This document shows, piece after piece, positions 13,505-61,378 of a DNA stretch of 64,000 nucleotides. The position numbers and the translations under genes were made by a program. The stretch's first letter is position 1; each line of letters begins with the position of its first letter. The stretch lies in assembly GCA_021292105.1 (NCBI GenBank), contig CM037861.1, forward strand, positions 47,795,310 to 47,859,309. The letters are read 5' to 3'. Under the pieces are notes generated by a model. The model saw nothing but the letters and a program-made list of their open reading frames with translations. It had not been told where the DNA came from and did not search any database. Source of the DNA: Anadara kagoshimensis. Its lineage: Eukaryota; Mollusca; Bivalvia; Arcoida; Arcidae.

Positions 13505-13612
13505 ATTTGGTACTTTGAGTATTTTTTCAACCCCTTGAAAATATTTTGGTTTCACAATTTTAGTCCAAGCACTACTGATAAGGAATTGCATTCAGAAACA
13601 TGAAACATTCGC
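13505..13612 (+). repeat. Dispersed repeat with hammerhead-like core, copy 1
   Basis: TTGGTACTTTGAGTATTTTT, AGTCCAAGCACTACTGATAA, then a stem-loop (GGAAT, loop TGC, ATTCA) and GAAAC (13595-13599). CTGATAA at 13575-13581 differs by one base from the hammerhead consensus CTGANGA. Confidence 0.55.
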
Positions 13613-14408
13613 TAAAATACTTCATAACACTTTTAAAAATTATATACTTGTTTCTTCTTTAATTGCATCATAAATTTTATTATTGACATGTACAAAGTAA
13701 ATTTATTATGTGCTGTTGGTAAAAGACACCCAAATTTGACATCCATTCCAAATTTTACTACCACAATCAAATAGCGCCACGAGATACTGTCAGCATCGAA
13801 ATATAACTAGCAGTCATTTGGTGCTGCGTTGATTTATTTTACATAATTTTTTTTATCCCTAATATGTCATTATAAACACTGTATGTTATAAAATTGTAAT
13901 GACAAGGTTGATATTGTTTGTAAATTAGATAGTGGCTGTAAACGAGCATAAAAGATGGAAAACTTTTAAAACCGTCAATTTGTTTATTCTTTACGATGTC
14001 ATTTTAAGCTTTCTGAAACACATTTTTCGAAGATTATATTGAATTTATTTGCACAACGCTCGTTGCTAAGGTAGCTGTTTTTCATGCATGTGCATTAAAA
14101 TGTTTTAGTTGACGTAATTATCCTGAAAGGGGAAATTGGTGTAGTGTCAACGACTTTTAAAACCATTTATCTTTTGAATGTGTTGATTGGAATTATCTGT
14201 ACAAAAAGCCCGATAAGGAGATATGTAACTACATATTCAATGTTTAATAAGGAAAAATAGGTTATTGAAGTTCAGGCAACTGTAATTGTTAAAAACTGAA
14301 CCCGGAAGAACTGAGATACCTTTAATATATGCAACTAGAAATAAACGATTTGCATCCTTAAAGCCATAACAGATTTATTTTAAACATATCTTAAAACACG
14401 GATAAAAA
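13613..14408. other. Intergenic, nothing recognised
   Basis: No feature supported. Confidence 0.5.
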
Positions 14409-14570
14409 CTGGTGTAGCTAGTTAAACATGAGGTGCTTACCGTTCTGGAGCACCCCGCCTAACTTCCCTGGTGTAAGCTCATGTAATAAAGGTATTCTGT
14501 CATTTTTAAATGTTTTACTTTGATCTGGGATTGCGATGTGGATATGGATTGATATGTTTGTATTTAATTA
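14409..14570 (+). mobile_element. Penelope-like 3' fragment
   Basis: GTGTAGCTAGTTAAACATGA, GGTGCTTACCGTTCTGGAGC and AACTTCCCTGGTGTAAGCTC match the tail. Ends near GGATTGATATGTTTGTATTT. Confidence 0.65.
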
Positions 14571-15442
14571 ATCAAAAAAATTTGTTTTAAAAAGGAACGA
14601 AGCTGAAAAATAATGTTTTAGTTTTGTAAGCCGTCAAACAAACCAGGTCAATTGTCAATATTTGCATTGGTATTTAGATTATGATTGATAACAAGATATG
14701 ATTAATTTCTTACAAACAGGTTAACAGGTTTTATTTTTTTTTTATTTTTGCTAATTTGAAATTCAGAAATCAAATAGTAAATTAGATTTTTCTGGTTACA
14801 AATCTGTATGATTTATTTGGAAGATGCATCAAAAGTAATATACATTTTGACAGTAATAACATAAATATTCATATAAAATATGTATTACTTGGATACACTA
14901 CGGAACAATTCTTAAACATAAACACCTAATGTGTTATTATATTTATGAGACACGCACCTTATAATCTTGTTATATAGACTTATACTAGTTTGGTATATGT
15001 GTATCTGGTATCGATTATCCGTTAAAACTTTTCCTTCGATTGCATTTCTAATTCATCACCTTGTCAGTTCATTGGCGTTTAAAAGACTTGTTTTCTGCTA
15101 GAAACCGATTTATCATATTTTATAGACTTAATTTAATTTGTATTGGGCATCAAATAAAGTTTTCTCTCTAGAAAGAAACTTCTTTGGTAATATTGTCGGG
15201 AAAACTTGATGATTGACGGTCTGTTTGTATGGCTTAGTTGTATTCATACGAAATAATATATATATTTTTTGTTTTCTAATGGAAATGCGTGTAATTTTGC
15301 ATCTACAAATTCAAAAGGGATAACTGGGTAACATAAGGCATGTTTAATTTGATATTCTAATTGAACAAAAAAAAATGTTTCGATTATTATAGAGAACTAG
15401 GTATTTTGAATAACAATATCACAATGAAGATTGTAACAGTTA
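14571..15442. other. AT-rich intergenic, nothing recognised
   Basis: No feature supported. Confidence 0.5.
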
Positions 15443-15612
15443 TAGTTATCCATGCCCGAATCACAATCCAGAAGGAAAGCTTGACACTGACAAATTAGTT
15501 AATCTACGTGAACTTTCGCCAGGAAAGTGAGACCTGGTACTACTCAAGGGCAAGTACCACCTGTTTAGCTAGCTACATCCGCCACGTGTGTAACAAAATT
15601 GAGTAAAATGAG
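15443..15612 (-). mobile_element. Penelope-like 3' fragment
   Basis: Minus-strand copy: CCCGAATCACAATCCAGAAG, CGCCAGGAAAGTGAGACC and CCTGTTTAGCTAGCTACA are reverse complements of the tail. It faces the plus-strand copy at 15703-15850, forming a loose inverted pair. Confidence 0.65.
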
Positions 15613-25994: not shown

Positions 25995-26054
<60 letters not shown>

Positions 26055-32582: not shown

Positions 32583-33833
32583 ATACTAAAAAGGCAATAT
32601 CATAATATAAACATCTACATAAAACAGCAGACAGAAACAATAAAAATAATAAAAACATACAGTAAAATAAAGTGCAGTGAGACATAAAATAATGAAATAA
32701 AAATGAGAGGAAAACTATATACACATTTAAAATTTAATTTAATCAACTAAATAAACATGAAAAGCAATCATGCAGCCAGACATATGTACATTTATTGAAT
32801 ATAAGAGTATAAAAGATGATCTTATTCAGCAATAAAATATACTAGAGGATGGGAGAATGCGTATCTGCATAAAGAGGCAATAATCTTCCAAAAATAAAAC
32901 GTGTTCTTTTACTAGCTGGATATGTTGTCCAATGCTCATTCAATTAGCCTTGCAGACTTTAGAATTGAAATCGGGCTTATTGTTTTTTCATGAAAAGCAA
33001 ACTTTAACATAACTTTTAAATTGTATTAAATTGACGCATTGTCATAACACTGTCACGTTTTGAATAGCCAACATCAACATAAATTTCTTTTTAAAAACAG
33101 CATAATTGTTTTATTGTGGAAAAGCATTCCATCATTTTCAACTAATTATTTTAACTAATTTTGGATATTTACAATCGCAATATCTTTGCTTCAATACAGT
33201 ATTTAACATCGACTATACTTTGCAACTTCATAGAGACATTGCTTTACGCGCTGACGTAATGACGTCAGATGTCAATTGCTTTCGTTGACTGACAGGAGAC
33301 AACCCATTTTTATAAGAAGATGCAACAAAAACGCATTTCAAAACTGTTTTCAAATGAACATGGAAAATGCGGGACAGCAATAAAACTATTTTTTAATAAA
33401 TATTGTAAATATAAGAAATAATATCAGTCATTTATTAATAACTTGAATATATTTTTTTACGATTACAATAATTTTAAACCATTCTGCTGCGATAATATGC
33501 TTCAGAAACTACCAATTATTCAATCATATATTCTTAATACTAAACCCAGTGTCTGGTTTAATTTATAATTTCTATTTAGATCAAAAAGCTTAATATCGTA
33601 ATATTGGAAACAAAGAAAGAGAAACATTCTTTAAGGTTTAAACCACAGATATTTACATACGCCAAAAAATATTTACTACTTCAGACAGTTCAGTGTAAAT
33701 CATCATATACTGTCAATTTGGATTATTTTGGTTAAATTGGATACAGTCTAATGATTCAAAGGTTGAATCTTACTAAGTTTAACTTGACTATATTATTAAC
33801 AGAACGCGTGTCTCTTATCTTATTTATCAAAAA
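32583..33833. other. AT-rich intergenic, nothing recognised
   Basis: No feature supported. Confidence 0.5.
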
Positions 33834-34392
33834 CAAACATACTAATCCATTTCCGAATCACAATCCAGAAGCAAAGTAAAAACTTTAGAACTGACAAGTT
33901 AGGTTAAACACGTGAACTTCCACCAGGGAAGTGAGGCCGGGTGCTCCGGAAGGGTAAGCACCTCCTGTTTAGCTAGCTACACCCGCCACGTGTGTAATCA
34001 AAATTGTGTGAAAGGAACATGGAACTATGAGACGTCAAATATATCCAAGGCAATCCTGGACACAGAGACATCAAACTTATCAACAATACTGTGATGACGG
34101 CCATAAAACGTTTTGAGGGCCCTGATAAGCCTAGGCTTGCAATATCCCTGAGTCAACAATTTATTTGCAAGCAGCCTACTTCGTTGTACAAAGTCCCCGT
34201 AGTGGGAACAAGCTCTACCATAGCGTATTAATTGGGAAACAAATACACCATAAGCAGGAGAAGCAGGTATATTGCTGCATAAAAAAGGAAAGTTGACAAT
34301 AGAAAAATTGAAGTCATCACGTTTGTCATAAAGTTTCAAATGTAGCCTTTCCTGTGCGTCATAATTCAGGTATAAGTCTAAATATGAAACAG
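33834..34392 (-). mobile_element. Penelope-like element copy, 3' 560 bp with RT C-terminus
   Basis: The minus strand encodes the last ~120 residues of the family RT frame (LYDKRDDFNFSIVNFPFLC, YGVFVSQLIRY, FYGRHHSIVDKF ... DIFDVS-stop), intact from 34339 to 34025, then the 3' tail to 33834. It is more conserved in its coding part than the copy at 50016. It is cut off at about 34392, upstream of which the YIDD catalytic motif would lie. Not functional because of truncation. Confidence 0.75.
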
Positions 34393-35373
34393 ATATTATT
34401 CAACCATGAACTAATAATGCGTTTTAGCTGACCTGTGTTGTAAGAATGATAGGGTAGCCAGTAACGTTAGAATAATATGTTGCCCAATGATAAATTCTAG
34501 TTTGATATAGGTCGTTGTTTAACTGAGCCAAAGTAAACACATGGACACACACAATATTAAGTACAATTTTAAAAAAATATGATGTTCATCTTTCGTCATT
34601 TGTAAAAATGTAGTGTGATGAGATCAGCTACATGTGAAGTCCAAGGATTTTATTTACCTTTTGCTGTTTGCTAACACCAATGAGATGGAATGGCATGGTT
34701 ACCTTGATACGTGGATTTGTTTTTTAAGATGTTTCGTAGTACCTGTCACTTTCAATTTTAATTAAGTTCTTTGTAAAACAGTGTTTACAATATATTTTGA
34801 AGTCTTGATCAGACCCTACTAGGGTTAGAATTCCGACCCCTGGCCAATGTACCGAGTAATAAATTAGCAGTATGAGCAACTGCGCTAAATACAAAGGTGG
34901 TAAATTTCTGATCGACGAGACGGTACAAAAACGTTTGATGTTTTGCCACATATTAGTGACATTTCAATAGTATTTCCTTCTTTCCACTGTTTCAAAATCT
35001 TTAGGTGTATATTTGGCGATGTAGATCTGGCAAAAGTATTATTCAACAAGGTCGTTAGGTCGTTGAGAACATTGATTCAGTCAGGTACATTTCACTACAT
35101 ATACATCGATGGCAAAAGGAATAAATGTATAAATTTTTCTTGACTTATTTGACTAGTCTGAAAAAAGTTTACCGACATTTTTGGCATGACCAGCTTATTC
35201 CTGAAAAAGTATCATTGATTCGCTGAAGGAGTTTAACATTTAAATGGAGGTCTGATTTAAATCCTGGGATAATGGTAAACTGCTGTACTTAAGTTTCGTC
35301 GATTTGATCTCAAAGGTATTCTGATCATTTTGTACTCGTAATTCTATGACAAAGTGAGTAACATGGACTTTAT
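34393..35373. other. Intergenic left flank of the LINE
   Basis: Holds only the doubtful SINE head at 34800-34925. Confidence 0.45.
34800..34925 (-). mobile_element. Possible decayed tRNA-derived SINE head
   Basis: On the minus strand TATTTAGCGCAGTTGCTCA resembles an A box. GGGTCGGAATTCTAACCC about 60 bases on resembles a damaged B box, followed by CTAGTAGGGTCTGATC. No intact cloverleaf. Weak. Confidence 0.3.
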
Positions 35374-38520: not shown

Positions 38521-39404
38521 AATTTTTTATTTTGGACAGAATGCCTAACGAATTTGAAACGTGTTTACAAAGATGTTAAACCAACGTTTTAAAGATCAAT
38601 TATGAAAAATAGATTAATTTGTAATCTAATGTTTAAGGTTCTATTGGTTTCATGCTATCATTCTTTAGATCTTGTAAACGTTTTAACCAATATCTTAGAA
38701 AAAAGGAGAAAACATGTAAAAAAGAAATACACCATAGATAAAAATAAGAGCAGAGTAATCTGATCAGGCGCCATGAAGCAATCCAATCTAACAAAATAAA
38801 TCTGAATCATTTATCATGGCTACCGACATGTTATCAGTTTTCAAAGTACATTCAAGTATATGTGAAAATCATTGAATAAAAGAATTGCTTTAAAATCTTT
38901 CTAGCCTTATTTTTAATGTCGGGGGTTTTAAAAGCAGTTAACAGCTCATTCCATTACATAATGTTACTTATCTGGTAATTTCAGTTTATTTTTTCAGATT
39001 CAAATACAGTCAAACATAAAAAACAAATGGCAGCAACTGTTTCTGATCTAAGAACAATGTTTAAGTTACATGTTTTCCTGATGAATTCTTTCTTTGCTGG
39101 CATGGTTATTTTAAAACAGGGTCCAGTCGTTTTCTAGATATAAGATATCTGAAATTCGTGAATATGAAAGCTATATGACAAGGAGTTTATCTTTAATATT
39201 TATATATGATAAAGTTCGTTTAAAAAAAAATCCTCGCATAAAACACAAATTGTGTTATTCATATTTATTATTTGATTTTAATCAAGTTTTCGCTGTTTAG
39301 TATTGAATATACTATGCTAATTTAAATATGGAATTCTTGAAAAACCACAGTATACTTCCCCGTACACAGTATTTCTTTAGCTAACTTCGAAAAACTACAT
39401 TTTG
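38521..39404. other. AT-rich intergenic right flank of the LINE
   Basis: Continues the pre-insertion sequence after the target-site duplication. Nothing recognised. Confidence 0.5.
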
Positions 39405-39512
39405 GTCCTTTTGATATTTTTTTCAACATCATTTTTGGTCCAAGCATTACTGATCAGGAATTATATTCCGAAACGGTGGATCTAGTGTGATAAAATTAAA
39501 ACTAGTATAATA
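39405..39512 (+). repeat. Dispersed repeat with hammerhead-like core, copy 2
   Basis: TTTGGTCCTTTTGATATTTT, TTTTTGGTCCAAGCATTA, then CTGATCA (39450-39456), a perfect 5-bp stem-loop GGAAT-TAT-ATTCC (39457-39469) and GAAAC (39470-39474), followed by GGTGGATCTAGTGTGATAAA. The best-preserved stem II in the window, with one changed core base (G to C). Confidence 0.6.
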
Positions 39513-42488
39513 TGTAATTCTAAGGTGACCACAGCTATAAGTTGCACTTTGTTTTACAAGATTATTGGAGTAAATATTGTGTATTTATCCTTAAGAGTTT
39601 CTTAGCATAGATAGAAAATCTAGACATTCTTTCATAAAGTTTTAGTTTTTTTACCGAAACATTTTCACTGTTTTTCTCGCGATGTTAATTAATTGACAAA
39701 TGGAAAAATCTTCAATTGGGCACGTACAATTAGTAACCATCACCAAACATCTTGACGTTTAAAGGTAAACGATAATGCTGACTATTATGTTTTGAATTTT
39801 ATGCTTAAAATACACTAATGCTTTACGAATAAACTAATCAAAAATCGATGACGGGTTCAAACAAGTTTAAAATGTTTCTAAGAATAATTACATTTAATTA
39901 CAACTCAAAATAGTGTATAATTATATTTTGATTTTTAGTCAATCCTGTATTGCTTTAGAAGTACAAATAATTAAAGTAATATGAGAATCAAAATCTCAAC
40001 AATATTAAAACCATATTCATTATTACTAAATTACCGTTTTAAGAGATTGTAACAACATTTTAACAATCCTTATAATTTCTTCTTGTGACATTTTTATTTA
40101 AAAAGTCTTTACGCTAGGAATAAATTTCAATTTCACTTCAAACTCAAAATTTTCTATGTCTTACAACTCCATCTTTTTTACCTTGAAAGGAATGATTGGA
40201 CACCTGGTCAAAGGCTCAAGGTTGACATGTGTTCAATTCAACTTACTTTGGTCAGGTAATTTGTGATGTAATCAACATAACAGCTATCATTAATAGAAAT
40301 CATTTCTATTAAGGGTAAAAAGGTGGAGTTGATGGACATAGAAATTTAGCGGTGTTAAGTAAAATTGAACAAAATTACATAGTCTTTTTGAAATAGGATT
40401 TTGAGCAGACAAGGTCACTTCCTTAAAACATAAGACATCTAGAAAAAATGTCGCCTCGATAAATGGGTACGTTAATCTTGCGACAATTGCATAAAAAAGA
40501 AGTCGCAATGAGCTCAGAAAATTTTGCATGTATTAACCCTTTTAAAACGATATTCCAGTGATAGCTTTATTTCGAACATATTATTATTCGAAAGTCATCA
40601 TGCACTGACAATGACGTCACGAACAAATCATTTTACGGTACACAACATTTTGAGTAATTTTTCAAACAGCATCATTGGCTTTAACGATTTTTACGCTTGG
40701 TAATAAATGCACACCTTGTGCGTAGCAAAATTTTAATTTTACATCACACGAAACGTTTATTACAAACGCTAAACCTTGTTTTTGTTGCATTCACGTCCTT
40801 TTTAATACATAACAATGTGTCATTACATTTCCCGAAAAAAATCATTACACTAGTAGGTGGGTATTACATTACTTGACATTTATTACATAACCCAGCGTAT
40901 CAAACGTTGTTTATCCCTGTTCACTTTCTTTTCATTGAAAAACACCTAAAAGGTTAAATCTGAAGGGTAAATGCTTCAAAAGTACATTTTACACTAAATA
41001 TCGGTACAAAAATGGATATTTATATAGATTTTTACTATATCTTATTCCTTTTTATTTCCTCTTTACATACAAAATGAGAAGCAGCACACCATGGCCACAG
41101 GTTGAATTCTACATAAAATGATGTCCAATTAGCAATTATTTCCGTCAGTGATATATTAGAAATGGAACGTTGTGACGAAATAAGGCATGGAATTAACACG
41201 ATATGTGTATATTTCATCTATGTGTGATGATTTATAATCCTCTTAAATGACGTAAGTTTTTGTGGTGCAGTAGGTACGTTTTAATTAAAATTCATGAGTT
41301 CTTTTATTACTTCCGTAATAGATGGATTGATACAAACTAAATAACTCATAGGGATCACAAAAAGTGATTTTAGCCAGGTCTCTGAGCGACATTTAGATCA
41401 ATAGGCAATATGTTATACCAGCATGAAGCTCGACATTACAGAAGTGTCTGGTATCTCAAATTGTATTTTTATTTTCTACGTCAGAACGCAAAATGGATGT
41501 CAGGTAAACTACAATTGAAATCATCATCTAGAAACACCTCATTTAGGTAAAACTTGTATCATTTAATGAAGCAGAATCAGGGTTTAAATAAATCATTATT
41601 ATAATATATTATTTTCTTTTTTTTTTTTGTACAGCCATTTACAATTATGAGGCCATTTAAAGAAAAACAAAAACAAATCACGACCATATCTGTTGTTTGT
41701 CCTTATCTTTGCTTGTTTGAAAGTATTCTTATAAAAACTATTAAATTAATTTTAAACATGTTTCACTTTTTGTGAAATGGCGGCATCTAGTATTCAAATT
41801 ATATATATATAGCAACATAAATATTTAATTTTACTACTACACTCATACCAATGAAAAAAAATCGACAAATAAAAACAATAAACTAATATGCTTTAAATAA
41901 TTTTCATTAGACTTGATAATATCAACAGGTTGATATTTGTAATAATTAACGCTACATCCAACCAACAGCAATATGACACATGGCAAAGATATGCATTTTC
42001 CAAAACATTTTATTTCTGTTTTGTATAAAAAATCCTTGTTCATGAAATACCAAATTAAATTTATATCAACATCAACCATTCACACAATGTCAATTCATCG
42101 AGTTCGCGCCTTACCAACGTCTTGTTGCAAAAAACAAAAAAAAAGACCTTGAATTTCAAGAAATCTGCTGATACACGTTATTACTACATATACATTTATG
42201 TTTTCATTAATTGTTGATACAAGACGTCACGTCAGATTTATTGAATAAAACATCGATGTTGCGTGCGATTTAAATATAATAGTGATTCAAATGCAATATG
42301 AACATAATTTGTTGAGATGTCAGACACGTTCCATTTCATCTTCTCCTTTTGGACTAATCGTTATTTGCAAACTGTGTTTTTAGGTTAAGTAGATGCAGAT
42401 TCCAGTAAAATGAAATAAAACATGCAGTGATACCCGTGTAGTTTTAAACACTATATTCCATTAGTTTAATTTGTTGATACCGTTTGTT

Positions 42489-42526: not shown

Positions 42527-44319
42527 GTAATAATACATAATATACATTAGTTGTCGATTGTTTAGAACGAATACCCATTGGGGTCATGAAAATTCATAAT
42601 ATTTGTTGACATTAATTTCGTGGTATACAAGAACCCATGAAAATTGTGAAACGAATCCCAAATGAAAATGTGTGATTTTACAGTCGATTAAATTATTATA
42701 TGTTTTGGAATCAATATTAACACTAATCGACTGAACCTATCTGAGAGAATTGAATAAACAAAGTCAGTAGTAATTTATGTTGGTTGATGTAACAAAATAT
42801 TCAAATTACATTATACCTACTTTTTATCTCGCCATGTCAAAGGAGTATCCGATAAAAAAATAAAAAGTACTACTACTAAAATGACTCTTATCACCATATG
42901 CAGTTCTTCTCATGAGGAATATTCCACAAATAATTTTACTAAAGTTAAGCAAAGAAAATACTTTGTATGAGGGAGTATACTTTAGTTTTTGAGGACTAAT
43001 GTTACATTAGAAACAGCTTAATATACACTGTATAATTCTATCGTCTTTTTATTGAAAACACCATGACTCCCTATAACAGAATACGTTCCCACCTACAGGG
43101 CTTATTTTATTCAAGTTCTCAATGTGCAAGGAAATATACCCGACTGCGTCGTTAGGGTGTTCCTAGAAATATATAATGAATCGAAGAACGAACGAAGAGA
43201 TCAACGCCAACAAGAAGGGAAAAAGTTTATTTTCTTCTCTGAAAGGTAAACATAAAGACATCCGTTCACATCCAAGAAATCAAAGAATGCAAAAATATTA
43301 ACTGAACAAGAATCTGAACTGAAAAATACGTCGGACGACGATCACAACTTTCAAAACAAAAGGTTTAAATGATCCTTTGCTTGCTTTTCTCCAGTCTCCC
43401 CAAAATAAAATGCCTTCAAAGTTTTGTTAAATGGGGGTCTTCAAGTACCACTTGATAAATTTCTACAACATTGCATATATAAACCGTATTATTACCACAT
43501 AATGTAGATCACATCGACCAAAACAATTGCTGATTGTGGTATAATAACTTGAACTTAGCTGTTTATTGATTTTTTGAAATTTATAAAGTTAAATGTTGTC
43601 ATAAGGTTGTTACGTGATAAAACATTTGATGGCGGTTTTAAGGAGTCATTGGCCTATTTAGAACTGTAAAGAGTATTAGTTTAACTGCAATAACACTTGG
43701 AACTCAGATAAGCAGATTACAAATTTCGAATAATTAAATGAACGATTGACGAAAATCTCTAAACTGATTTGTGTTTGTCAAGTTGTTAGTTCAAATATGA
43801 ATACTTGATTATGCATTTCTAATTAAGTCGTTACAAGGGAACAAATTAACGCTAATTATTAACCTTAAGTAACACAAAAACGTCAAAACATCGAACAATT
43901 ATCCTTTGGAATTAATCAAAGCATGAAGCCAAAATTCAAAGAAGTGGCCTTTTTCACTGCTTTTCTGATTCTAGCATTAAGGATTTTTTGTCAACATGTC
44001 CGATTATATTGAAAGTGTTTGCTGTTAATAATTTAATAATTGCTTCTGCGAGTGAAAACAATCCTTGTGGATAAAAGTGCAAGAAGTTGATAACATAATA
44101 TTTGTTCAAGGTAATGTTACCTCTTAACACTCATTTCTTTCTTGAACATTTTCATAACCATATTAAATTTTTCCATGATCAAATTTCTACATACTGTATC
44201 TGCATACTTACTCCTTACATTCTTACATTAGTTCCGGATCTGGAAATATGCGTATTGTCTCTATATTTTACCCGTTAGTAATTTTGTTATTTAATTTTAA
44301 CGCCCAGTCTTAACAAAGT
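42524..44319. other. Intergenic, a 41-codon frame at 43176 only
   Basis: ATG 43176 opens MNRRTNEEINANKKGKSL... with a possible donor (AAAG|GTAAAC) at about 43246. Too short and without motifs to call a gene. Confidence 0.4.
42564..42664. repeat. Possible dispersed inverted-type repeat
   Basis: GAACGAATACCCATTGGGGT, ATTTCGTGGTATACAAGAAC and GTGAAACGAATCCC resemble a common bivalve interspersed repeat built on TTCGTGG/ACGAA strings. Weak; single copy here. Confidence 0.25.
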
Positions 44320-46372: not shown

Positions 46373-47989
46373 ACTTAATAAAGAATTAAGTTTGTGATAC
46401 TCCAAAGAAACATGGGAAATTGGAATTATTCGTCCAAGCACAAGAATATAATATAAACAATTTCATGATGATTTATTTGAATAATTTGGATTTGATTAAT
46501 AAAATAAATTAATGATAGACAGTCCCATTATAATTATGACATAAAAAACCAAATAAGTAATAATTAGATGTTGATGAGCGTTTTATTCCGGACACTAAAA
46601 TGTTCGAATTGTTCTTCCAATCAAAAGAAAACTAGTATATTTATAAACAAAAAATGCAGATGACGCATTAAGCGACTGCAACGGAGAATTTGAAATGTTG
46701 TTTTAAAGTTCACTGTTATATATTCTTTTATTGAAAAGAAACGGATTCACGTTTTTGCAGAGTTTTCTGTATATTCACATTTTTATTTATTTAGGTTTCA
46801 GTTTAATTAAGACCATTGAATAAGGTACTTTGAAAAGTTTAAAAAACAATGACATGTAAGACAATGGAGTCATTCTTTGACCAAAAAGCAATTCATCACT
46901 TCTATTTCTGCAATATATTCGGAATTGAATGGCTGTAACAATGATTAGAATAGTCTTTTCAAAACGCTAAAGGGAATTAAAGTCTGCACATCAAATTTAA
47001 TTAAAATTGGACTACCCTACGCAATATTGTGCTATAGACAAACACTAAACCGAACTTTAATTTCACTCAGATAACATCCGAGATGCATTAGTGCAGTCTT
47101 TGGATTAAGTCGCCATTCTGTGATCATTGATTTAATTTTTTGCGAAATTGATTTTATTGTAATAGTTTCAAATATCCATTTACTTGTCTGAGACATCCTT
47201 TTTCTCTACATAATGTAATGAAAAAAACATCTTAGCAGACGATGAATCTTAAAATTTGAAGATAGGGTGCATTTGAAAAGAGTTTTAATTAAACTTTTAT
47301 TGGTTTATTTTTTTCTATAAAATTATTCTTGGGGATTTTGTCACGTAAACAAAATGTATATGTTTCAGTTACAATTTTCTTCAACGCTAAATCATATATC
47401 TATGTGACTCAGAAAAAAAGTCGCAGATTTTATCATTAAAGTTGGTTTGAATTTATATCTAGTATGTCTGACATAACTAAAAAATGACCATGTTTTTTAT
47501 ATAAATAATCTTAGGAACAAACTGCCCATTTTATCACTCACTGTTGAATGTTGTGCACTCTCTGTTTAAAAATGAATATTTTACGAAACATGACGAATCA
47601 CCAATATACATATATATATACACTCAGATGGGTTTTTTCTTATATTCTGAAATGTAAAACAACGAATCGTCAATATACAAATAATTGTTTAATTTCTCAA
47701 TTCAGGCTTATACATTTACTACTTGATATTTGTAAATGTTTGGTTTGGTATTGTTGGGTATATCAAACGTAAAGTTTGTATCATGACCTTAAAATTATGG
47801 CAAAATATTTTTAATGCAATTGATAAATGCAATATACATTTCTAGTAATGTCCAACACAAGATGGTATCTAAAGTTCAGGTTTTAATTTAGTAACATGCA
47901 ATACACTGTATTCTCAGATAAACGTTATTAATCAAGATTAGTTGCTACGTAAATTTTTAATTCCTAACATAACTAAGATACACTTAATC

Positions 47990-48545
47990 ACTTAATCATT
48001 TAAAGTATTGCCTACGGTGGATTTGGTCAAATAAAGCTTTGTCCTTCTCTTTTTCTAAATAGAAAAACCAAAACTAATCGGACTTTTCGAGCGATCACTA
48101 CTGATTCTATATGATGTCAATATTGAAACTTTCAATTAAAACATAGAAAACCATCAATCACGATCATTGCTTTATCATTAAAATATTCTATATACATTTA
48201 TTTACGTGTATATACATTCACTAAACACTATATTCTACTTTACATAAATTAATGCCAGAAAGGTAAAAAACAGTTTCGAAAAATATACAATGAATACAAT
48301 ATAAAAGGTTAAACAGTTTGTATTAATATATTGAATACAATCCTATTCATTATCTCCGTGTTTTTGCTATGAAGTGTCACATAAATTGAAACTTTAAAAT
48401 GCCAATGACTTATAAAGTCTATTATCAAATTTTATTGCTGTTATTCTCCTGTGGTCATTGATTTAAAAATCATTTGAAAAAAATAAAAATAAAAACATAT
48501 GATGAGTTTGAACCGTTTTAGCAACCTTTATATATGAGTCATTAA
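47990..48545. repeat. Block c, unit A copy 1
   Basis: Shares TATATGATGTCAATATTGAA, ACATAGAAAACCATCAATCA and the TATTCTAC/TTTACATAAATT stretch with four other copies. Closest to 59520-60135. The hammerhead-like core is deleted here (CTACTGATTCTATATGATG). Confidence 0.8.
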
Positions 48546-49009
48546 TAGTTCAAAAGGTCAAACGATAATCCTTCGAGGCTCATTCTTTTCTAATGTTTTG
48601 ACCAATTGTCAATATACACCAAATTGTTTAATTTCTCCATAAAGGCTTACAAATTTACTACTTGATATTTTTAGAAGCATATGAAATTATTTGTAAATAT
48701 TACGGAGGTTATCCTTTTTAATGCATAGCATTCATGGAATTTGGATGTATAATGTTTGGTTTGGTAATGTTGGGTATATCAAACTTGATTTATTTATCAT
48801 GACCTAAGGATTTATCATAACAACATAATTTTTATGCTAAAGATGCAAGCAATATGCACTTCCATATATGTTCATCAGAAGATAATACTTACAGTTCAGG
48901 TTTTATTTTAGCAACAGGCAATACACTGTATTGTCAGATAAACGTTGTTAATCAACAATATCTGATACGTGAAATTTAATCTAAAAAAGCTAAGCTACAC
49001 TTGATTATT

Positions 49010-49625
49010 TAAAGTATTGCCTTAGGTGGATTTGGTCAAATAAAGTTAGGTCCTTCTATCGTTCTAAATAGAAAATTAGACTTCTAGTTCGACCTCTACT
49101 CATGAGAGATTTTGTTCCGAACGACGGTCTTTTAGTGCTACAAAATCAAACAGGTTTAGTTACAGATACATATATATTCTATATGATGTCAATATTGAGA
49201 GTTGCATCCAAAACATAGAAAACCATCAATCACGATCATTGCATCACCATGATAATATTTTATATAGAGTTATATACGTGTTCGAACATTCAATAAAAAC
49301 TCTATTCTTCTTTACATAAATTGCTGCCAATATGAAATAAAAACATTTACGAGAAAATGTACGATGAATCTAAGATGAAATGTCACACAGAACAATGGAG
49401 AAATTCTCTGACTTAATATATTGAATACAATCCAATTCATCATCTCCGTTTTTGTTATCAAGTGTCATTTTAATTGCAAATTCAAAATGTCAATGACTTA
49501 TAAAGTCTACAAAATAAATTCTCCTACGGTCATTGATTTGAAAAATTATTTTAAAAAATAAAATAAATATAAAAACATATGATGAGTTACAACTTTGTTC
49601 TTTATTTATGAGTCAACAATATTTC
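49010..49625. repeat. Block c, unit A copy 2
   Basis: About 1,072 bases after copy 1. Nearly identical to 60620-61240, including GGTCCTTCTATCGTTCTAAA and GAGAGTTGCATCCAAAACAT. Confidence 0.8.
49098..49170 (+). repeat. Hammerhead-like repeat in array block c (second copy, unit A)
   Basis: CTCATGAGAGATTTTGTTCC then GAACGACGGTCTTTTAGTGC and TACAAAATCAAACAGG. Same place and spacing as the other block c copies. Core decayed. Confidence 0.45.
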
Positions 49626-49822
49626 GAAAGCTTTGGTAAAATTTCTGGAAGATTTCAGAAGAAAAATGAGGTTTGATGTACAGTTTGTTCTAAAATAAAA
49701 AAAAATGTCGCAAAAAAAAAAATATTTTTCATAATATACACTAAAATAGGGTATGCTTTTTCTGCATTTTATTAAAATTAATATAATATATTAAATGTAT
49801 ACATCAAATGCATTGTATCCAA

Positions 49823-51370
49823 AACAAACATATTAATCCATGTCCGAATCACAATCCAGAAGCTGAGTAAAAACTTTGGAACTGACAAGTTAGGTTAGAC
49901 ACGTGAACTTCCACCAGGGAAGTAAGGCCGGTTGCTCCGGAACGGCAAGCACCTCCTGCTTAGCTAGCTACACTCGCCACGTGTGTAATCAAAATTATGT
50001 GAAAGGAACATGGAACTATGAGACGTCAAATATATCGAGAGCAATCCTGGACACAGAGATATCAAACTTATCAACAATATTGTGATGACGGCCATAAAAC
50101 TTTTTGCGGGCCTTGATAAGCCTAGACTTGCAATATCTCTGAGTCAACAATTTATTTAAAAGCAGCCTACTTCTTTCTATAAAGTCCTCATAGTGGGTAC
50201 AAGCTCTAACATAGCGTATTAACTGGGAAACAAATACACCATAAGCAGGAGAAGCAGGTATATTGCTGCATAAAAATGGAAAGTTTACAATAAAAAAATT
50301 GAAGTCATCGTGTTTGTCATAAAGTTTAAAATATAGCATTTCGTGTGCGTCATAATTTAGATATAAGTCTGAATATGAAGCAGAACTTGAGGAATCACTC
50401 GTGTCTTTTATTTCAAGCTCACTAGGATAGATGACATTTACATAGTCTCCAAATTTAGGATTGTTTAGAGACAGAACGTCATCTATATATCTGTATGTTG
50501 AGTTGAATGATTTGGCGACAGTCTTCTCTCCAGATTTAACAAGGTTCTGCATAAATTCTGCTTCATAAGAATAAAAACAAATCAGTAAGCAATGGTGCAC
50601 AGTTTGTACCCATTGCTATACCGATTGTTTGCTGAAAAACTATATTACCAAACACAACAAATATGTTATCTATAAAAAACTCCAACATACTGTTGATAGT
50701 ATTTTCAGTATATTTTTGTTTGGAATCCGTATGATGCTTGACAAAATAACCAGAATCTCTGTTCAGCACCAGATATTTGTATCTTGGCTTACCGTTATTG
50801 TAAAAGAAAGACAAGTCACTTTTTCTTTAAGACGTTCTTTCAATTTAGAATGAGGGAGAGTGGTGTATAATGTAGAAAAATCAAATGTTTTTATACTTTT
50901 TACATGAGATAAAGTATTAGAAGGAAGATGTTCAAGTAATGTTTTTGACGATTGTCAAAATTGTGTTACAGTTACCGATAATGATTTAGTAGTACATTTA
51001 GATGAGCCTGCTATATATCTTTCCTTGTATGGTTTTTTTATGGAGTTTAGGAATCCAATACAAGATCAAGATCTTCCTCTTTAAGATTGATACCGAAAGA
51101 CTCGAAAACTCCCTTATGGTTGAAAATACTTCATCTTTGGTAAAATTAGTTCTAGTATATGCAGGGTTATTCGATATACTATCTAAACCAAGCTTCTTAA
51201 TAAGACATTCCAGGTAGAATCTCTTACAAACGAGAATAACATTGTTACAAGCCTTATCAGCTGGAACAATAACATATTTGTTGTGTATGTCTGTTAGAAT
51301 TGCCTTGATTTCTTGTATAAAATTTAAAAAGACATATATTAAACAAAAATGTACAATTTCTTCAAGATTC
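49823..51370 (-). mobile_element. Penelope-like retroelement, longest copy (~1.5 kb, 5'-truncated)
   Basis: Minus-strand insertion in the first unit of the direct-repeat array. It has a broken RT frame from 51375 down to 50016 and the 3' tail from 50015 to 49823. The matching place in the second unit (about 55080-55165) runs through without it, giving an empty site. The ~15 short fragments elsewhere in the window match only its 3' part, consistent with 5' truncation during reverse transcription. Assignment to Penelope-like elements rests on RT motifs, not on a search. Confidence 0.7.
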
Positions 51371-51375
51371 AACAT
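50016..51375 (-). pseudogene. Penelope-like reverse transcriptase, broken by frameshifts
   Basis: Reading 51375 to 50016 on the minus strand gives a continuous RT-like series split over several frames: VPADKACNNVILVC, YWIPKLHK (the PKxHK motif before the RT fingers in Penelope-like RTs), RYIAGSSKCTTKS in a second frame, FDFSTLYTT (motif A), GIAMGTNCAPLLTDLF (motif B), then SYEAEF and RYIDDVLSLNN (YxDD catalytic motif). The thumb-like VNFPFLCSNIPASPAYGVF and the terminal DIFDVS follow. Frames: 51375-50998, then a shifted stretch with an internal stop to 50815, then 50814-50563, then 50600-50016. A segment after KSLSVTVTQF seems shorter than in relatives, so there may be a small deletion. No GIY-YIG endonuclease is seen; the 5' end is truncated. 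Inactive. Confidence 0.75.
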
Positions 51376-52400
51376 TAACAGTTAGGTAAAAAATAGTATT
51401 ATTGGCATTTATCACTGAAGATGGGAAAAGGGAGGCGAGAAATCAAATACAAACTAAACCATTTCATACCCAATCACAGGCTCTGATGTACAGTTGGTTG
51501 TAAATGGATCACTGGAACGGCCGTCTAGTGCTGTAAAAATTAAAACTGGTACAATATGGAATACAAGAGTTCAAAATAAGCCCGATGAATTGTATTGTTT
51601 CACATTCTTAGGTATGGTTCTGGTCTATCAATTGTTTTTCAGAATCATCGTTTTTGTTAACCATATTAAAACATACGTTACTATTATTAAACGAGATCTC
51701 TATTACAGATGCCCTGAGTTATTCTAGATTGTTTTACAGTTTCACAAGGTAATTGGTGTATTTGGTCTCAATATGTTCTTTATAAAAAATTCAATATAAC
51801 CACGAGTTCTTTAAAGCGTCAATACGAAAACTATAAATCTAAGTGTTTTATGTCTGTCGCACTATCCTTAAAACATTGATTTGAAGCAAAAAACGTATTT
51901 ATACCCCAAGTCCGATGTAAAATCTTAAAGTGAGATTACCATTTTACGACTTATTGACATCAAAAAAGCCATTAGGGTAATTTCACTATTATCTGCATTG
52001 TCCATGTTTTATTAAAAAACGTAAAAGAAGACTTATAACAAATCTATTTTGACTTTTATTGTATTTGAAAAAATCGGTCAGCTCTTGAATGAATAAGACG
52101 TTATTTTTGTTTACTATACATCGAGACTTTAAAATCCAAATTTTGATTTAATTTAAAAAAAAATAGATGAAGAAAATAAAAAAACAGAAAGTCTGATTTT
52201 AAATCAGTGCATATCAAGAACAAATCTTTTCGGCTTACGTTTATTTCATCCTACCAAAGGTTGTGATATAACAGCATCTGAAGTAGTGAAAGATTTGAGT
52301 ATTTATGCTGTTAATCTGTTAAAACGGTTTATGTTTTGTTTATTATGTTTGTTTTTAATTTACAGAACAATATATGGCTAGATTGTTTAAAGCGGGTTGA
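51370..52400. repeat. Block d, unit A
   Basis: Matches 55145-56150: TAAAAAATAGTATTATT, CAGATGCCCTGAGTTATTCT, AACCACGAGTTCTTTAAA, CAAAAAACGTATTTATACCC and GACTTATTGACATCAAAAA occur in the same order and spacing. No coding frame evident. Confidence 0.8.
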
Positions 52401-53764: not shown

Positions 53765-54269
53765 ACGTAAGCAAGTGTATGTTTTTTAATTCAATTTTCT
53801 TCAACGCTAAGACATATATCAAACACCACAAAAGGTTTTAAATCATAAAAATTTCTTTAAACTTATATTTAGTATGTCTGACATTACGAAACAAAAGGCC
53901 GTGGTTTTTATGTGAATAAATTCTGTGAAGAAACTGCTCAGTACATCACTTTTTAAGTTTTTTGCACGCTCAAGTTTAAAATGAAAATGTCAACAGACAT
54001 TGACTAATTGTCAATATACACTCAGTATATCAAATCTGAAGTTCTTATCATGACCTAATGGTTTATCATAAAAATATTATTTTATGCCAAAGATGCAAGC
54101 AATATGTATGTCTAGTTATGTTCAACAAAAATGGCACTTTATGTTCGAGTTTTAATTAGTAACATGTAATACACTGTATTGTCAGATAAACGTTGTTAAT
54201 CAAGATTATCTGCTACGTAAATTTTCATTTACTAAACAACTTAATTACACTAAATTATTTAAAGTATTG

Positions 54270-54900
54270 CTTTAGGTGGATTTTATCAGTAAAGTTTGGT
54301 CCTTCTTTTTTCCTAAGTAATTTTTTTTTATTTTGACCACTGCTGATGAGAGATTTTGTTCCGAACGACGGTCTTTTAGTGCTACAAAATCAAACAGGTT
54401 TAGTTAAAAATACATATATATTCTATATGATGTCAATATTGAAAGTTTCCACTAAAACATAGAAAACCATCAATCACGGTCATTGCATCAACATGTTAAT
54501 GTTTTATTCACAATTATTTACGTGTTCGAACATTCAATAAACATACTATTCTTCTTTACATAAATTGATAGCAATATGAAATAAAACTAGAAAATGTATG
54601 ATCAATCCAAGATAAAATGTCAAACAAAACAATGGAGAAATTCTCTGACTTAATATATTTAATACAATCCAATTTATCATCTCCGTTTTTGTTATGAAAT
54701 GCCATTTTAATTACAAATTCAAAATGCCATTGACTTATAAAATATATAAATCAAATTTTATTACTTATATTCTCCTAACGTCATTGATTTTAAAAATTAT
54801 TTTAAAAAATAAAATAAAAATGAAAACAAATGATGAGTTTGAACCTTGTTCACCAACCTTTATTTATGAGTCAACAATATTTTGAAAGCTCAAGCGAAAA
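54270..54900. repeat. Block c, unit C
   Basis: Single copy in this unit: CTATATGATGTCAATATTGA, AACCATCAATCACGGTCATT, then ATGAGTCAACAATATTTTGA. Confidence 0.8.
54340..54412 (+). repeat. Hammerhead-like repeat in array block c (unit C)
   Basis: Intact CTGATGA at 54343-54349. The following stem is weak (GAGATTTTGTTCC) and GAAA is changed to GAAC. Then GACGGTCTTTTAGTGCTA as in the other copies. Confidence 0.5.
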
Positions 54901-55144: not shown

Positions 55145-56150
55145 TAAGCATGCAAAATTAACAGTTTAGTAAAAAATAGTATTATTAACATTCAGCACAA
55201 AAGATAACAATGAGGAGACGAGAAATCAAACATAAAATATATAGCTCCATGCCCAAATCACAAATCCCAGGGTCTGTCATGTACAGCTTATTATAAATGG
55301 AACACTGGATAACTTTAAATCATAGTTACAAGTTTTAGGGGGTTTTCTTTTTTAATATAAATGAGTCCAATATACCAGAGATAAAGAAACCGTAAATAAA
55401 ATGAATTGTATTGGTTTACATTCTTAGATTCGGTTCTGGTCTAACAATTATGTTTCAGAACCATCGTTTCTGTTACTCGTATTAAAACATAGGTCTTTAA
55501 TATTAAACCAATTCTCTAGTACAGATGCCCTGAGTTATTCTATATTGTATTGCAGTTTCGCATGGTTATTGATATATTTGATCTCAATATGTTTTTATAA
55601 AATATTCCAATATAACCACGAGTTCTTTAAAACGTAAATATGCGAATTATAAATCCAACTGTTATATGTCTGTTGCATGATCTTTACAGCACGGATTTGA
55701 AGCAAAAAACGTATTTATACCCCAAGTCCTATGTAAACTCTTAAAGCGAGATTACCATTTTTACGACTTATTGACATCAAAAAGTCATCAGGGTAATTTC
55801 ACTTTTGTCTGCAGTGTTTATTGTTTAATTTTAAAACCGTAAAAGAAGACTTAAAACAAATTCATTATGACTTATCTTCTTTCTAAAAAAATTGGATATT
55901 ATTCAAATTGACCATAGTGTGAGATTTTACATTCGGTACTTTGATTTAATTAAAAAGAATAGATGAAGCAAAATGAAAAGACACATAGTCTGATGTGGTA
56001 CAATAGCTTATGAAAAGAAAGAATTGAGAATTTCTGCTGTCATTCTGTGAAAACAGTTTTATCTTTTTAGAACAATTTGTGGCATTATTTTTTTAAGCGG
56101 GATAATTGTATCTATAGTAGCTATGTTTATTGGTGACATTGTTAGATCTT
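55145..56150. repeat. Block d, unit C
   Basis: Second copy of block d. The sequence just before it (55000-55145) continues directly from block c and is the empty site of the Penelope-like insertion found in unit A. Confidence 0.8.
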
Positions 56151-56204
56151 ACAGTGAAGTCTACTTCCTCATGTTAATTATTTTCTCTGTTTAATTTGGT
56201 GAAA

Positions 56205-56345
56205 TATATTTTGGTCCTTTTGGGTATGTTTTCAACATTTTGGGAAAAAATTGTTTTACAACTTTGGTCCAAGCATTACTGAAGGGTTATTGTATTCGAA
56301 AGCGGCCGCCTTGTGGTGAAAGATTAAAACTGGTAGAGCTATAAT
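56205..56345 (+). repeat. Dispersed repeat with hammerhead-like core, diverged copy
   Basis: TTTTGGTCCTTTTGGGTATG and TTTGGTCCAAGCATTACTGA match copy 2. The core region then reads CTGAAGGG...TATTCGAAAGC, so GAAA is kept but CTGANGA is damaged. Ends AGATTAAAACTGGTAG...ATAATATG. Confidence 0.5.
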
Positions 56346-56419
56346 ATGTTATTAATATTCAACTAAAGACATTAATATCGAGTCGGAAACGTCGTTTGCC
56401 ACAACTAGTTCTAAATTCT

Positions 56420-56575: not shown

Positions 56576-56602
56576 TGAGGACAAATATTAAACTAAATGC
56601 GT

Positions 56603-56745
56603 GACTACTCATGAAGGAAGTGAGATTTGGTCACCCGTAAGGCTAAACATTTTCTTTCTAGTTAGTTACACTCACCATGTCTAAAAATAAAATGTAGAAT
56701 GAAGTATTGGATTATAAGACGTCAAATATATGCAAGATTTTGAAT
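56603..56745 (-). mobile_element. Penelope-like 3' fragment, strongly diverged
   Basis: AAGGAAGTGAGATTTGGTCA, CTAGTTAGTTACACTCACCA and TAAGACGTCAAATATATGCA are recognisable reverse complements of the tail and frame end. Confidence 0.5.
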
Positions 56746-57370: not shown

Positions 57371-57440
57371 CAGTTCCAAAGTTTTTACTTTGCTTGTGGA
57401 TTGTGATTCGGACATGGATAAGTTTATTTGTTTTTGGTTA
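57371..57440 (+). mobile_element. Penelope-like 3' terminal fragment
   Basis: CAGTTCCAAAGTTTTTACTT, GTGATTCGGACATGGATAAG and TTTATTTGTTTTTGG match only the last ~70 bases of the tail. Confidence 0.55.
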
Positions 57441-59519
57441 CAAGCCTAAATGCTCAATGTATTTTGTTGTTAGATATGGCATGAAATGTCGTTTAATAAA
57501 AAACTTTTTCACATACTATATGCATTTTGAAGTTATTTTAGTATGATTTATTCACCTTTTGTTTATGTAATATTTTTAGTTTTATTCAGAATAAAGTTGC
57601 ATAACTGATGATCATTTTACATTTTTTGGCTGTATATAATCGTTAAGTTGTACATACGGCTGGTTATAATCGTTTTTATGACTCATAAAATTATTTGTTT
57701 CGATGGTATTCACATAAAACATTACGAATGTAAATATATTTATTATTTGTATAAAAAAGGATAACATACTGTAGACAATCAACACACAAACACAATGTTA
57801 AACCTGTTATTTTGAAAAATGAATAAATTTTTAAGTTCTGCACCAAAGGGAACGAGGAAATGATTAACCATGCAATCTGTAAAAGTTCAAATGAGTTATA
57901 TCTGTCAGTAGTGTACTTTCTTATAACAACTTTTGTATACAATGTGTCATTGTTTTGGATAATTTGGATTGGCAGGATAAAATGAATTTATGATGAAGAG
58001 TCCTATTATAATTACGATATAATAAACCAAATAAACAATACTGATATGGTTATTAGTCGACCACTTATAAATATTCGAATTATTCGTCCAATCACAAGAA
58101 TACATTTAAAACTGAAAATGGTGACGCATCAACTGTCTGCAACGGGAAATTTCAAATGTTGTTTTCCGATTTTTCAAAAAAATTCAAAAACCCTTAACAA
58201 GAGGTCACTGCTATAAATTCTTTAATCCAACAAAATCGGATTTTCTTTTTTGAAGGTTTTCTTTATAAACACATGTAAATTTAAATTGGATTTCATTAAG
58301 ATTATGAGATTGCGTAGTTGAGTAATTGACAAAAACGACAGAAAATGGTCCGTGGTTTTAACCAAACGCAAATTAAGGCAATGGAGTCAATCTCTGACCA
58401 AAAGCAATTCATCACTTCCATTTCAGTAATGTATTCGGAATTGAATGGCTGTAACAATGATTAGAATGGTCTTTTCAAAATGCTAAAGGGAATTAAAGTC
58501 TGAACATCAAATTTAATTAAAATTGGACAACACTACGCAATATGTGCTATAGACAAACGCTAAAACGAGCTTTAATTTCACTCAGATAACATCCGAGATG
58601 CATTAGTGCAGTCTTTGGATTAAGTGGCCACTCTGTGATCATTGATTTGATTTTTTTTTTTGCTAAATTGATTTTATTGTAATAGTTTCAAATGTTCATT
58701 TACTTGTCTGACCATCCTTTTCTCAACACAATTTAATGAAAAAACATCTTAGCAGACGATGAATCTTAAAATTTGAAGATAGAGTGCATTTGAAAAGAGT
58801 TTTAATGAAACTTTTTTTGGTTTGATTTTTTCTATAAAATTATTTTTGAAATAAAACTCGGGGATATTGTCACGTAGGCAAATTTTGTGTTTCAGTTACA
58901 ATTGTCTTCAACGCTAAACCATATATCTATATGACTCCTCAAAAAGTCGCGGATTTTATCAGTAAACTTGGTTTGAATTTATGTTTAGTATGTCTGACAT
59001 AACTAAACAATGGCAATGTCTTTATGTGAATAATCTTAGAAACAAACTGTTCAATTTATTACTTACTGTTGAATGTTTTGCACTCTCTGTTAAAAAATTA
59101 ATTTGATGAAACATGACGAATTACCAATATATATATACACATTCGGTTGTTTTATTTGCATTTTAAAGTTATTCGCAAATAATTCACGGCTCATTCTTTT
59201 CTTATGTTTTGAAATGTAAATGACTTATCGCCAATATACACCTATTTGTTTAATTTCTCAATCAAAACTTACAAAGTTGCACTGCAAATCCGATGGTATT
59301 TGGTTTGATTATGTCGGGTATATCAAACTTGAAGTTTGTATCATGACCTTTGAAGAAGGATTATAATAACAATATTATTTTTATGCAATTGATGAAAACA
59401 ATATGCATTTCTAGTTATGTCCAACAGAAGATAGTATTTAGGTTCAGATAAACGTTGTTAATCAAGATTATCTGTTACGTAAAATCTCAATTTCTAAAAA
59501 AAACTAAGCTACACTTAAT

Positions 59520-60135
59520 CATTCAAAGCATTTCCTTGGATGAATTTGGTCAAATAAAGTTTGGTCCTTCTATTTTTCTAAGTAATAATTGGACTTTTAA
59601 TTCCACTATTGATGAGGGATTGTATTCCAAACGGCGGTCTTTTAGTGCTACAAAATCAAACAGGTTTAGTTACAAATACATATATATTCTATATGATGTC
59701 AATATTGAAAGTTTCAATTAAAACATAGAAAACCATCAATCACGATCATTGCTTTATCATTAAAATATTCTATATACATTTATTTACGTGTATATACATT
59801 CACTAAACACTATATTCTACTTTACATAAATTATTGCCAGAAAGGTAAAAAACAGTTTCGAAAACATCTACAATGAATACAATATAAAAGGTCAAACAGA
59901 ACAATAAAGAAATTTTCTGTATTAATATGTTAAATACAATCCTATTCATTATCTCCGATTTTTGCTATGAAGTGTCACATAAATTGAAAATTTAAAATGC
60001 CAATGACTTATTAAGTCTAGAATAAAATTTTATTACTATTATTCTCCTACGGTCATTGATTTAAAAATCATTTGAAAAAAATAAAAATTAAAACATATGA
60101 TGAGTTTGAACCGTTTTAGCAACCTTTTATTATGA
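59520..60135. repeat. Block c, unit B copy 1
   Basis: Matches 47990-48545 closely from TATATGATGTCAATATTGAA onward. Confidence 0.8.
59603..59668 (+). repeat. Hammerhead-like repeat in array block c (first copy, unit B)
   Basis: TTGATGA (59609-59615), stem-loop GGGAT-TGT-ATTCC with five pairs including one G-T, then AAAC in place of GAAAC, then GGCGGTCTTTTAGTGCTA. Confidence 0.5.
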
Positions 60136-60619
60136 GTCATTAATAGTTCAAAAGGTCAAACGATAATCCTGCGCGGCTCATTCTTTTCTAATATTTTGAC
60201 CAATTGTCAATATACACCAAATTGCTTAATTTCTCGATAAAGGCTTACAGATTTACCACTTCATATTTTAGATGCATATGAAATTATTCATAAATAATAC
60301 TGAGGTTATTCTTTTTAATGCATTGCATCCATGGAATTTGGGTGTATAAAGTTTGGTTTTTGGTTTAGTAATGTTGGGTATATCAAACTTGATTTATTTA
60401 TCATGACCTAAGAATTTATCATAAAAACATAATTTTTATGCTTAAGATGCAAGCAATATGCACTTCCATATATGTTCAACAGAAGATAATACTTACAGTT
60501 CAGGTTTTATTTTAGCAACAGGCAATACACTGTATTGTAAGATAAACGTTGTTAATCAAGATTATCTGATACGTAAGAATTTAATATAAAAAAGCTAAGC
60601 TACACTTGATTATTTAAAG

Positions 60620-61240
60620 CATTGCCTTAGGTGGATTTGGTCAAATAAAGTTTGGTCCTTCTATCGTTCTAAATAGAAAATTAGACTTCTAGTTCGACCA
60701 CTGCTCATGAGAGATTTTGTTCCGAACGACGGTCTTTTAGTGCTACAAAATCAAACAGGTTTAGTTACAGATACATATATATTCTATATGATGTCAATAT
60801 TAAGAGTTGCATCCAAAACATAGAAAACCATCAATCACGATCATTGCATCACCATGATAATATTTTATATACAGTTATATACGTGTTCGAACATTCAATA
60901 AAAACTCTATTCTTCTTTACATAAATTGCTGCCAATATGAAATAAAAACATTTACGAGAAAATGTACGATGAATCTAAGATGAAATGTCACACAGAACAA
61001 TGGAGAAATTCTCTGACTTAATATATTGAATACAATCCAATTCATCATCTCCGTTTTTGTTATCAAGTGTCATTTTAATTGCAAATTCAAAATGTCAATG
61101 ACTTATAAAGTCTAAAAAATAAATTCTCCTACGGTCATTGATTTGAATAATTATTTTAAAAAATAAAATAAAAATAAAAACATATGATGAGTTACAACTT
61201 TGTTCTTTATTTATGAGTCAACAATATTTCCAAAGCTTCG
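60620..61240. repeat. Block c, unit B copy 2
   Basis: About 1,095 bases after copy 1. Matches 49010-49625 closely. Confidence 0.8.
60700..60770 (+). repeat. Hammerhead-like repeat in array block c (second copy, unit B)
   Basis: GCTCATGAGAGATTTTGTTC then CGAACGACGGTCTTTTAGTG. Almost identical to the copy at 49098-49170. Confidence 0.45.
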
Positions 61241-61378
61241 GTAAAATTTCTGGAAGATTTCAGAAGAAAAATGAGGTTTGATGTACAGTTTGTTCTAAAA
61301 TAAAAAAAAAATCTCGCAAAAAAATAAAATTTTTTCATAATATACACTAAAATAGGGTATGCTTTTTCTGCATTTTAA

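Follow-up and report, generated by a model that had tools for sequence, protein, structure and literature searches.

A probable retrozyme-like repeat family with a predicted type I hammerhead ribozyme in the bivalve Anadara kagoshimensis, joined at some loci to a reverse transcriptase element

We analysed a stretch of 64,000 nucleotides from the bivalve Anadara kagoshimensis (GenBank assembly GCA_021292105.1, contig CM037861.1, forward-strand positions 47,795,310 to 47,859,309; hereafter the window), in which a recurring repeat resembles the catalytic core of a hammerhead ribozyme. The repeats are probably decayed members of a large, non-coding, retrozyme-like mobile family, the ~330-bp unit of which contains a complete type I hammerhead with predicted cleavage. 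About five independent insertions carrying ribozyme sequence, all damaged, are present in the window (Table 1). Elements of this kind have been described before in other animals; a shared 3′ end and a joint with a reverse transcriptase (RT) element are the points that deserve a second look.

Because other copies in the same genome look intact, the resemblance to a hammerhead reflects real descent and not chance. A genome search with the stretch at 13326-13598 as the query (42 matches listed) led to several loci with intact cores; L-numbered loci are fetched stretches of this genome, and intact copies lie, for instance, at L013:9596-9639 and L029:3754-3797. The majority consensus of 27 copies, TCATAATTTTGGTCCAAGCACTACTGATGAGGAATTGTATTCCGAAACGGCCGTCTAGTGCTGTAAAATTAAAA, reads GCACTA-CTGATGA-GGAAT/ATTCC-GAAAC-GGCC-GTC-TAGTGC, with the cut between GTC and TAGTGC and with an outer A/T stem. 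We scored hammerheads on nine fixed core bases and on their stem pairs, with a maximum of five for stem II and six for stem I. On this scale the consensus reaches the maximum of 20, representing a complete type I hammerhead, and none of 50,000 shuffles reached 18. The sequence-only reading had proposed descent from a canonical hammerhead and had named a genome consensus as the way to check it. In the consensus of the fetched copies the core is intact and the stems can pair, the opposite of what an accidental resemblance would give, and the proposal is supported by both the consensus and the intact copies.

A sample drawn at random gave the same picture. It comprised twenty 10-kb stretches (200 kb) on 10 contigs, at positions drawn by a script that covered 17 of the 36 contigs, some of them only up to the largest coordinate among the genome-search matches. 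The ribozyme profile found nine matches in this sample, seven of them strong, and none in the reversed sample; the two weak matches were excluded from the counts of cores and ends. All nine fixed core bases are kept in five of the seven strong copies, the other two having a core change, and three score 20/20. The fixed core CUGANGA...GAA, the A15.1-U16.1 pair and H17 are found in the 27-copy consensus and in five of the seven strong copies. Scanning these 200 kb for hammerheads without any information on the family returned six family sites, three of them scoring 20 and three 19, and two unrelated sites at 18, which is also where ten block shuffles peak. By rough extrapolation, seven strong copies per 200 kb correspond to about 39,000 copies in the genome (Poisson range about 16,000-80,000), and five intact ones to about 28,000 intact-core copies (about 9,000-65,000). 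The term 'decayed', used in the sequence-only reading, fits the window copies; in the random sample, five strong copies have all nine fixed bases intact.

Within the window, the four sites at which core-like words and a stem-loop had been reported in hammerhead order are all present. Read directly, the copy at 13575 has CTGATAA, GGAAT/ATTCA and GAAAC; the copy at 39450 has CTGATCA, a perfect GGAAT/ATTCC stem and GAAAC; the copy at 54343 has CTGATGA followed by GAAC; and the copy at 59609 has TTGATGA, GGGAT/ATTCC and AAAC. Stem I, which had not been used before, pairs at 39450 (GCATTA/TAGTGT), at 59609 (CACTA/TAGTG) and, with one G-U pair, at 54343 (CACTG/TAGTG); the copy at 13575 has no stem I 3′ strand. 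At 39450 the UC cut site lies immediately 5′ of the stem I 3′ strand, and at 54343 and 59609 three additional T residues stand between the two. The copy at 54343 keeps the nine fixed core bases, but GAAC replaces GAAAC; the other window copies read are altered in the core or truncated. A profile built from seven window copies (13.5, 39.4, 49.0, 54.3, 56.2, 59.5 and 60.6 kb) recovered these seven and a truncated copy at 48.0 kb. The half copy at 51516 fell below the inclusion line with this profile (E 0.015) and was found at E 6e-8 with a profile from other loci.

Self-comparison of the window revealed segmental duplicates at 46.5-49.8, 52.8-55.1 and 57.9-61.4 kb, with an inner duplication of ~1.1 kb. 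The copies at 48, 49, 54, 59 and 60 kb count as one insertion that has been multiplied, since they lie within one tandem segmental duplication. The repeat had been called dispersed, which holds for the copies at 13.5, 39.4, 51.5 and 56.2 kb but not for those at 54343 and 59609, which are duplicates of one insertion. The stretch 46471-61377 can be described as a tandem segmental triplication of ~5 kb. An RT insertion of 1.5 kb interrupts the first duplicate at ~49.8-51.3 kb, and the second duplicate lacks it near 55.09 kb. We considered the 52 kb duplicate as an empty site for the 56 kb copy and set it aside, the alignment being too weak for use.

A chance likeness of an AT-rich repeat to a hammerhead is one alternative, and window copies taken one at a time leave some room for it. 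Copy 39450 scores 19/20, and the best of 40 dinucleotide shuffles of the window reached 18.5. Copies 54343 and 59609 reach 17, the same as an unrelated site at 4523; these two copies alone prove nothing, because the shuffles average 2.4 sites at 17. Apart from 39450, no single window copy rises above the shuffles. A lineage-weighted consensus of the window copies scores between 17.5 and 20, depending on the alignment and on tie-breaks. Column shuffles of one window alignment reached 17.5 in 15 and 18.5 in 3 of 20,000 trials; when flanking non-element DNA after 13598 was included, the consensus stood at 17.5, and of 20,000 shuffles 140 equalled or exceeded 17 and 13 equalled or exceeded 18. The negative Rfam result given below also speaks for chance. 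Set against this are the intact copies elsewhere, the 20/20 consensus and the unguided-scan sites that stand above their shuffles, and we count the chance explanation as refuted.

Several results weigh against the retrozyme-like identification itself. The covariance-model check with Rfam that had been proposed earlier was negative: neither the window, nor 13 loci including intact copies, nor the surroundings of three single copies gave a hammerhead at the gathering score. An intact copy in L013 reached 12.2 bits against Hammerhead_1 (RF00163), in a shifted register. A match of this kind helps recognition and does not define the fold; because there is none at the gathering score, we base the identification on the consensus together with the core and stem order, both of which agree with Hammerhead_1 by hand alignment. 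Neither seven window copies nor a 66-nt consensus has the three-way hammerhead as its minimum-energy fold, and these folds are not unusually stable. In favour of the structure, stems I, II and III, taken in type I order, pair in 82.2% of 538 cells as opposed to 30-45% with slid partners; dealing the 3′ letters anew gave 82.6%, so the real partners pair no better than redealt ones. Covariation did not exceed that of shuffles either, with three pairs changed on both sides and a shuffled mean of 3.9. Given neither a gain in pairing nor an excess of compensatory changes, the copies look like the neutral decay of an intact source, and selection on individual copies lacks support from the pairing and covariation tests. 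Finally, metazoan non-long-terminal-repeat (non-LTR) retrozymes are recognized by a single type I hammerhead in each repeat unit of ~150-450 bp, by tandem copies, by target-site duplications of more than 4 bp and by expression as small circular RNA. The unit here measures 323-340 bp with one such hammerhead. Of 12 copies tested for long flanking direct repeats, only two have them, with lengths of 55-59 bp for the 13.3 kb insertion and ~90 bp for L028, and the other ten have none.

The Rfam result also means that a family with intact cores was missed by the gathering threshold in the loci searched. The same loci contain, at L029:7997-8130, a 3′-end fragment of a eukaryotic small-subunit rRNA gene (85 bits). 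Exact-pattern scans for the repeat in viral and genome contig collections gave no match, and a literature search for papers printing particular sequence words found none.

Units are ~330 bp long, and in L009 the ribozyme recurs in a clear tandem of such units. In the random sample and in the window, copies span about one unit or less, two random copies being slightly longer than one full unit. Counted from the ribozyme cut site, the 5′ ends of the seven random copies are scattered (14, 26, 148, 166, 240, 264 and 264), and the 3′ ends cluster in five of the seven (34, 36, 37, 37 and 40), the other two lying at 6 and 59. Among directed copies, which come from loci chosen by similarity to the 13.3 kb joint and include the near-duplicates L012:5821 and L005, 7 of 16 have a 3′ end at 34-46. 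The nine misses are five L009 units followed by more repeat and four copies ending at 13, 15, 15 and 32. Two of six window copies end at 34-46; the four others, which are decayed, end at -7, -4, -3 and 13. These positions depend on alignment settings: a looser alignment moved the end of the 56 kb copy from -3 to 36 and that of the L029 copy from 36 to 77, and several decayed copies over-extend.

Scattered 5′ ends combined with a favoured 3′ end are the usual trace of target-primed reverse transcription. We infer that the copied RNA still had the cut site joined and was uncut, religated or circular. It is plausible that the ribozyme cuts transcripts spanning one or several units and may also serve to circularise them. 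At a nicked target, an RT could then begin from a fixed position immediately beyond the ribozyme (near UAUAAUAUGUAAUU), and copying would run back over distances that vary, in most cases by about a unit's length or shorter. Once inserted, copies would decay neutrally, as appears to have happened in the window.

A candidate source of RT activity lies beside the ribozyme repeat. The insertion at 13.3 kb consists of an RT element's 3′ end joined to a ribozyme piece, and the two copies of a 55-59 bp direct repeat (86% identity by BLAST) abut its outer ends; among 20,000 random pairs of window stretches, 12 show an equally good match. The RT element is abundant and 5′-truncated, and ends sharply at TTTGTTTTTGAT; we found 15 matches to its 3′ end in the 64 kb (2972-57436) and 24 in the 200 kb of random genome. 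Matches spanning both the RT part and the repeat part make up 11 of the 42 listed, the window's own included. Of seven loci inspected, six (L002-L007) have the core region after the RT end and in the same orientation, and L008 has only the repeat sequence that precedes the core. At other loci the joints lie at slightly different positions within the same AT-rich stretch of the unit. We dropped the idea that the 13.3 kb joint is unique in view of these further joints. The converse idea, that every RT end carries a ribozyme, was also dropped: when RT 3′ matches that extend to the model's end are considered, a ribozyme copy follows within 120 nt on the same strand for 1 of 13 window matches and for 0 of 20 matches from the random sample. 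The joined loci were found with the joint as the query and therefore provide no evidence that joints exceed chance.

Window RT pieces gave no relevant match in Pfam or PDB, the broken pieces gave no Pfam match to a GIY-YIG endonuclease, related-locus searches for the RT piece gave no match, and a structure model of the piece was poor (predicted local distance difference test score 43). A piece of a relative in L009 has a telomerase RT as its best PDB match, weak at E 0.0025, and matches Pfam RVT_1 at E 0.002, under the cut-off. Penelope-like RTs are close to telomerase, which makes a Penelope-like identity plausible, though unproven; some Penelope-like elements have no GIY-YIG domain. The sequence-only reading had supposed that retrozymes and Penelope-like elements coexist here. 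Its first half agrees with the retrozyme-like ~330-bp unit, tandem in L009; the second half is conjectural, with the abundance of the RT element and the weak L009 match on one side and the unmatched window pieces and missing GIY-YIG match on the other.

How the ribozyme repeat and the RT element relate allows several readings, and the enzyme that mobilises the repeat is unproven. The ribozyme might be a component of a Penelope-like element's terminal repeat (pseudo-LTR), in which case solitary copies would be leftover ends and not an independent retrozyme. We consider this unlikely, but a serious contender. Ten of the 42 listed matches besides the window's own span the RT 3′ end and the repeat, the core follows the RT end in six of the seven loci inspected, and in L009 the RT region with its telomerase-like match is followed by two ribozyme units. 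Moreover, reverse transcription of an anole Penelope-like element is described (PMC11167929) as starting 111-118 bp into the open reading frame, with the hammerhead cut at 26 bp, so that its insertions likewise end past the ribozyme; ribozyme mutants left in vitro insertion unchanged. Against this placement, complete RT 3′ ends almost never run into a ribozyme, the joined loci are a selected set, and the 3′ ends of the RT element and the ribozyme repeat differ in sequence. Repeat sequence flanks the RT piece on both sides in L003 and L005, which fits insertion into the repeat, and upstream of the RT region in L009 (3419-6839) no repeat unit was found.

Alternatively, the RT element may mobilise the ribozyme RNA in trans, the 13.3 kb insertion being a template-switch or read-through product, a reading that we hold to be rather improbable. 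That a single direct repeat encloses both the RT 3′ end and the ribozyme piece, abutting both outer ends, speaks for such an event, and the intact L028 copy is also flanked by a direct repeat of ~90 bp, located 31 and 20 nt beyond its approximate ends. However, 13.3 kb is the single clear locus and could have arisen by sequential insertion, 10 of 12 copies tested have no long direct repeat, none of 14 other RT copies has a flanking repeat of comparable score, and random window pairs occasionally match equally well. A more specific proposal is that circular or uncut RNA is copied in a target-primed manner from one site 34-40 nt past the cut by the abundant telomerase-like RT element, the 13.3 kb locus being a captured joint of both RNAs. 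We regard this as speculative and unlikely. If true, the RT element would be the missing autonomous partner of animal retrozymes. According to a 2020 review, the repeats of animal retrozymes have no conserved motif that reveals the mobilising retrotransposon (PMC7761336). The favoured 3′ junction, the scattered 5′ ends, the occasional long direct repeats and the RT joints are features with which candidate partners can be tested in other genomes.

The retrozyme-like family was also compared with known systems by description. Mussel non-LTR retrozymes have type I hammerheads in ~350-390 bp repeats and produce circular RNAs (Cervera and de la Pena 2020, PMC7229834). The present family resembles them in its hammerhead type, in repeats of a few hundred base pairs, in high copy number and in having no reported protein-coding content. 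It differs in unit length (~330 bp, compared by description and not by sequence) and in copy number (about 39,000, a rough figure with a wide error, versus the ~5000 reported for mussel). The present family further differs in its favoured 3′ end, described here, which lies past the cut site; the titles and abstract openings of the literature searched contain no description of a fixed 3′ end for animal retrozymes. Filing the family as retrozyme-like is suggested by unit length and ribozyme type. Penelope-like elements carry minimal type I hammerheads, as reviewed in PMC7761336. Shared with those are a short helix III, dispersed copies, insertions ending downstream of the cut site and, in some loci, a joint with a putatively telomerase-like RT. 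The differences are that the present family is joined to the 3′ side of the RT element in selected loci, with pseudo-LTR placement as a rival reading, that no GIY-YIG domain was found in the pieces examined here, and that helix III has two pairs (A-U and C-G).

Table 1 Ribozyme repeat copies and RT element pieces in the window
Feature	Position	Strand
Left copy of the 55-59 bp direct repeat abutting the joint insertion (target-site-duplication-like)	13267..13325	+
RT element 3′ end joined to ribozyme piece	13326..13489	+
Repeat piece with damaged core (G8 = A), ends at GAAA before the cut site	13490..13598	+
Right copy of the 55-59 bp direct repeat abutting the joint insertion	13599..13653	+
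Second RT element copy, 92% identical to the first	33825..34393	-
5′-truncated ribozyme repeat copy; 3′ end at ~unit position 36	39301..39526	+
Hammerhead core of copy 39450 (G8 = C; stems I and II complete)	39444..39488	+
Repeat fragment from upstream of the ribozyme	42932..42997	-
Copy cut off within the core, in duplicated block; profile match 48025-48105	47910..48105	+
Copy in duplicated block; core CTCATGA at 49099	48915..49158	+
Broken RT element (the first) with YIDD reverse transcriptase pieces; 3′ end at 49816	49816..51381	-
3′ half copy (GAAC GGCC GTC TAGTGC); 3′ end at ~unit position 35	51507..51562	+
Copy in duplicated block; core CTGATGA at 54343, GAAC	54176..54402	+
Strongly decayed copy absent from the sequence-only reading; core CTGAAGG at 56279	56150..56353	+
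Copy in duplicated block; core TTGATGA at 59609, AAAC	59463..59668	+
Copy in duplicated block; core CTCATGA at 60704	60519..60763	+

The window contains further features. Nested direct and inverted repeats occupy ~1 kb at 16119-17100 and are related to sequence at 32.3-32.6 kb. A rhodopsin-type G-protein-coupled receptor reading frame (7tm_1, E 6e-53) lies at 17535-18687, with a second, overlapping frame from 18304. A reverse transcriptase of the long interspersed nuclear element type (RVT_1, E 1e-36), followed by a zf-RVT domain, is found at 35527-37753.

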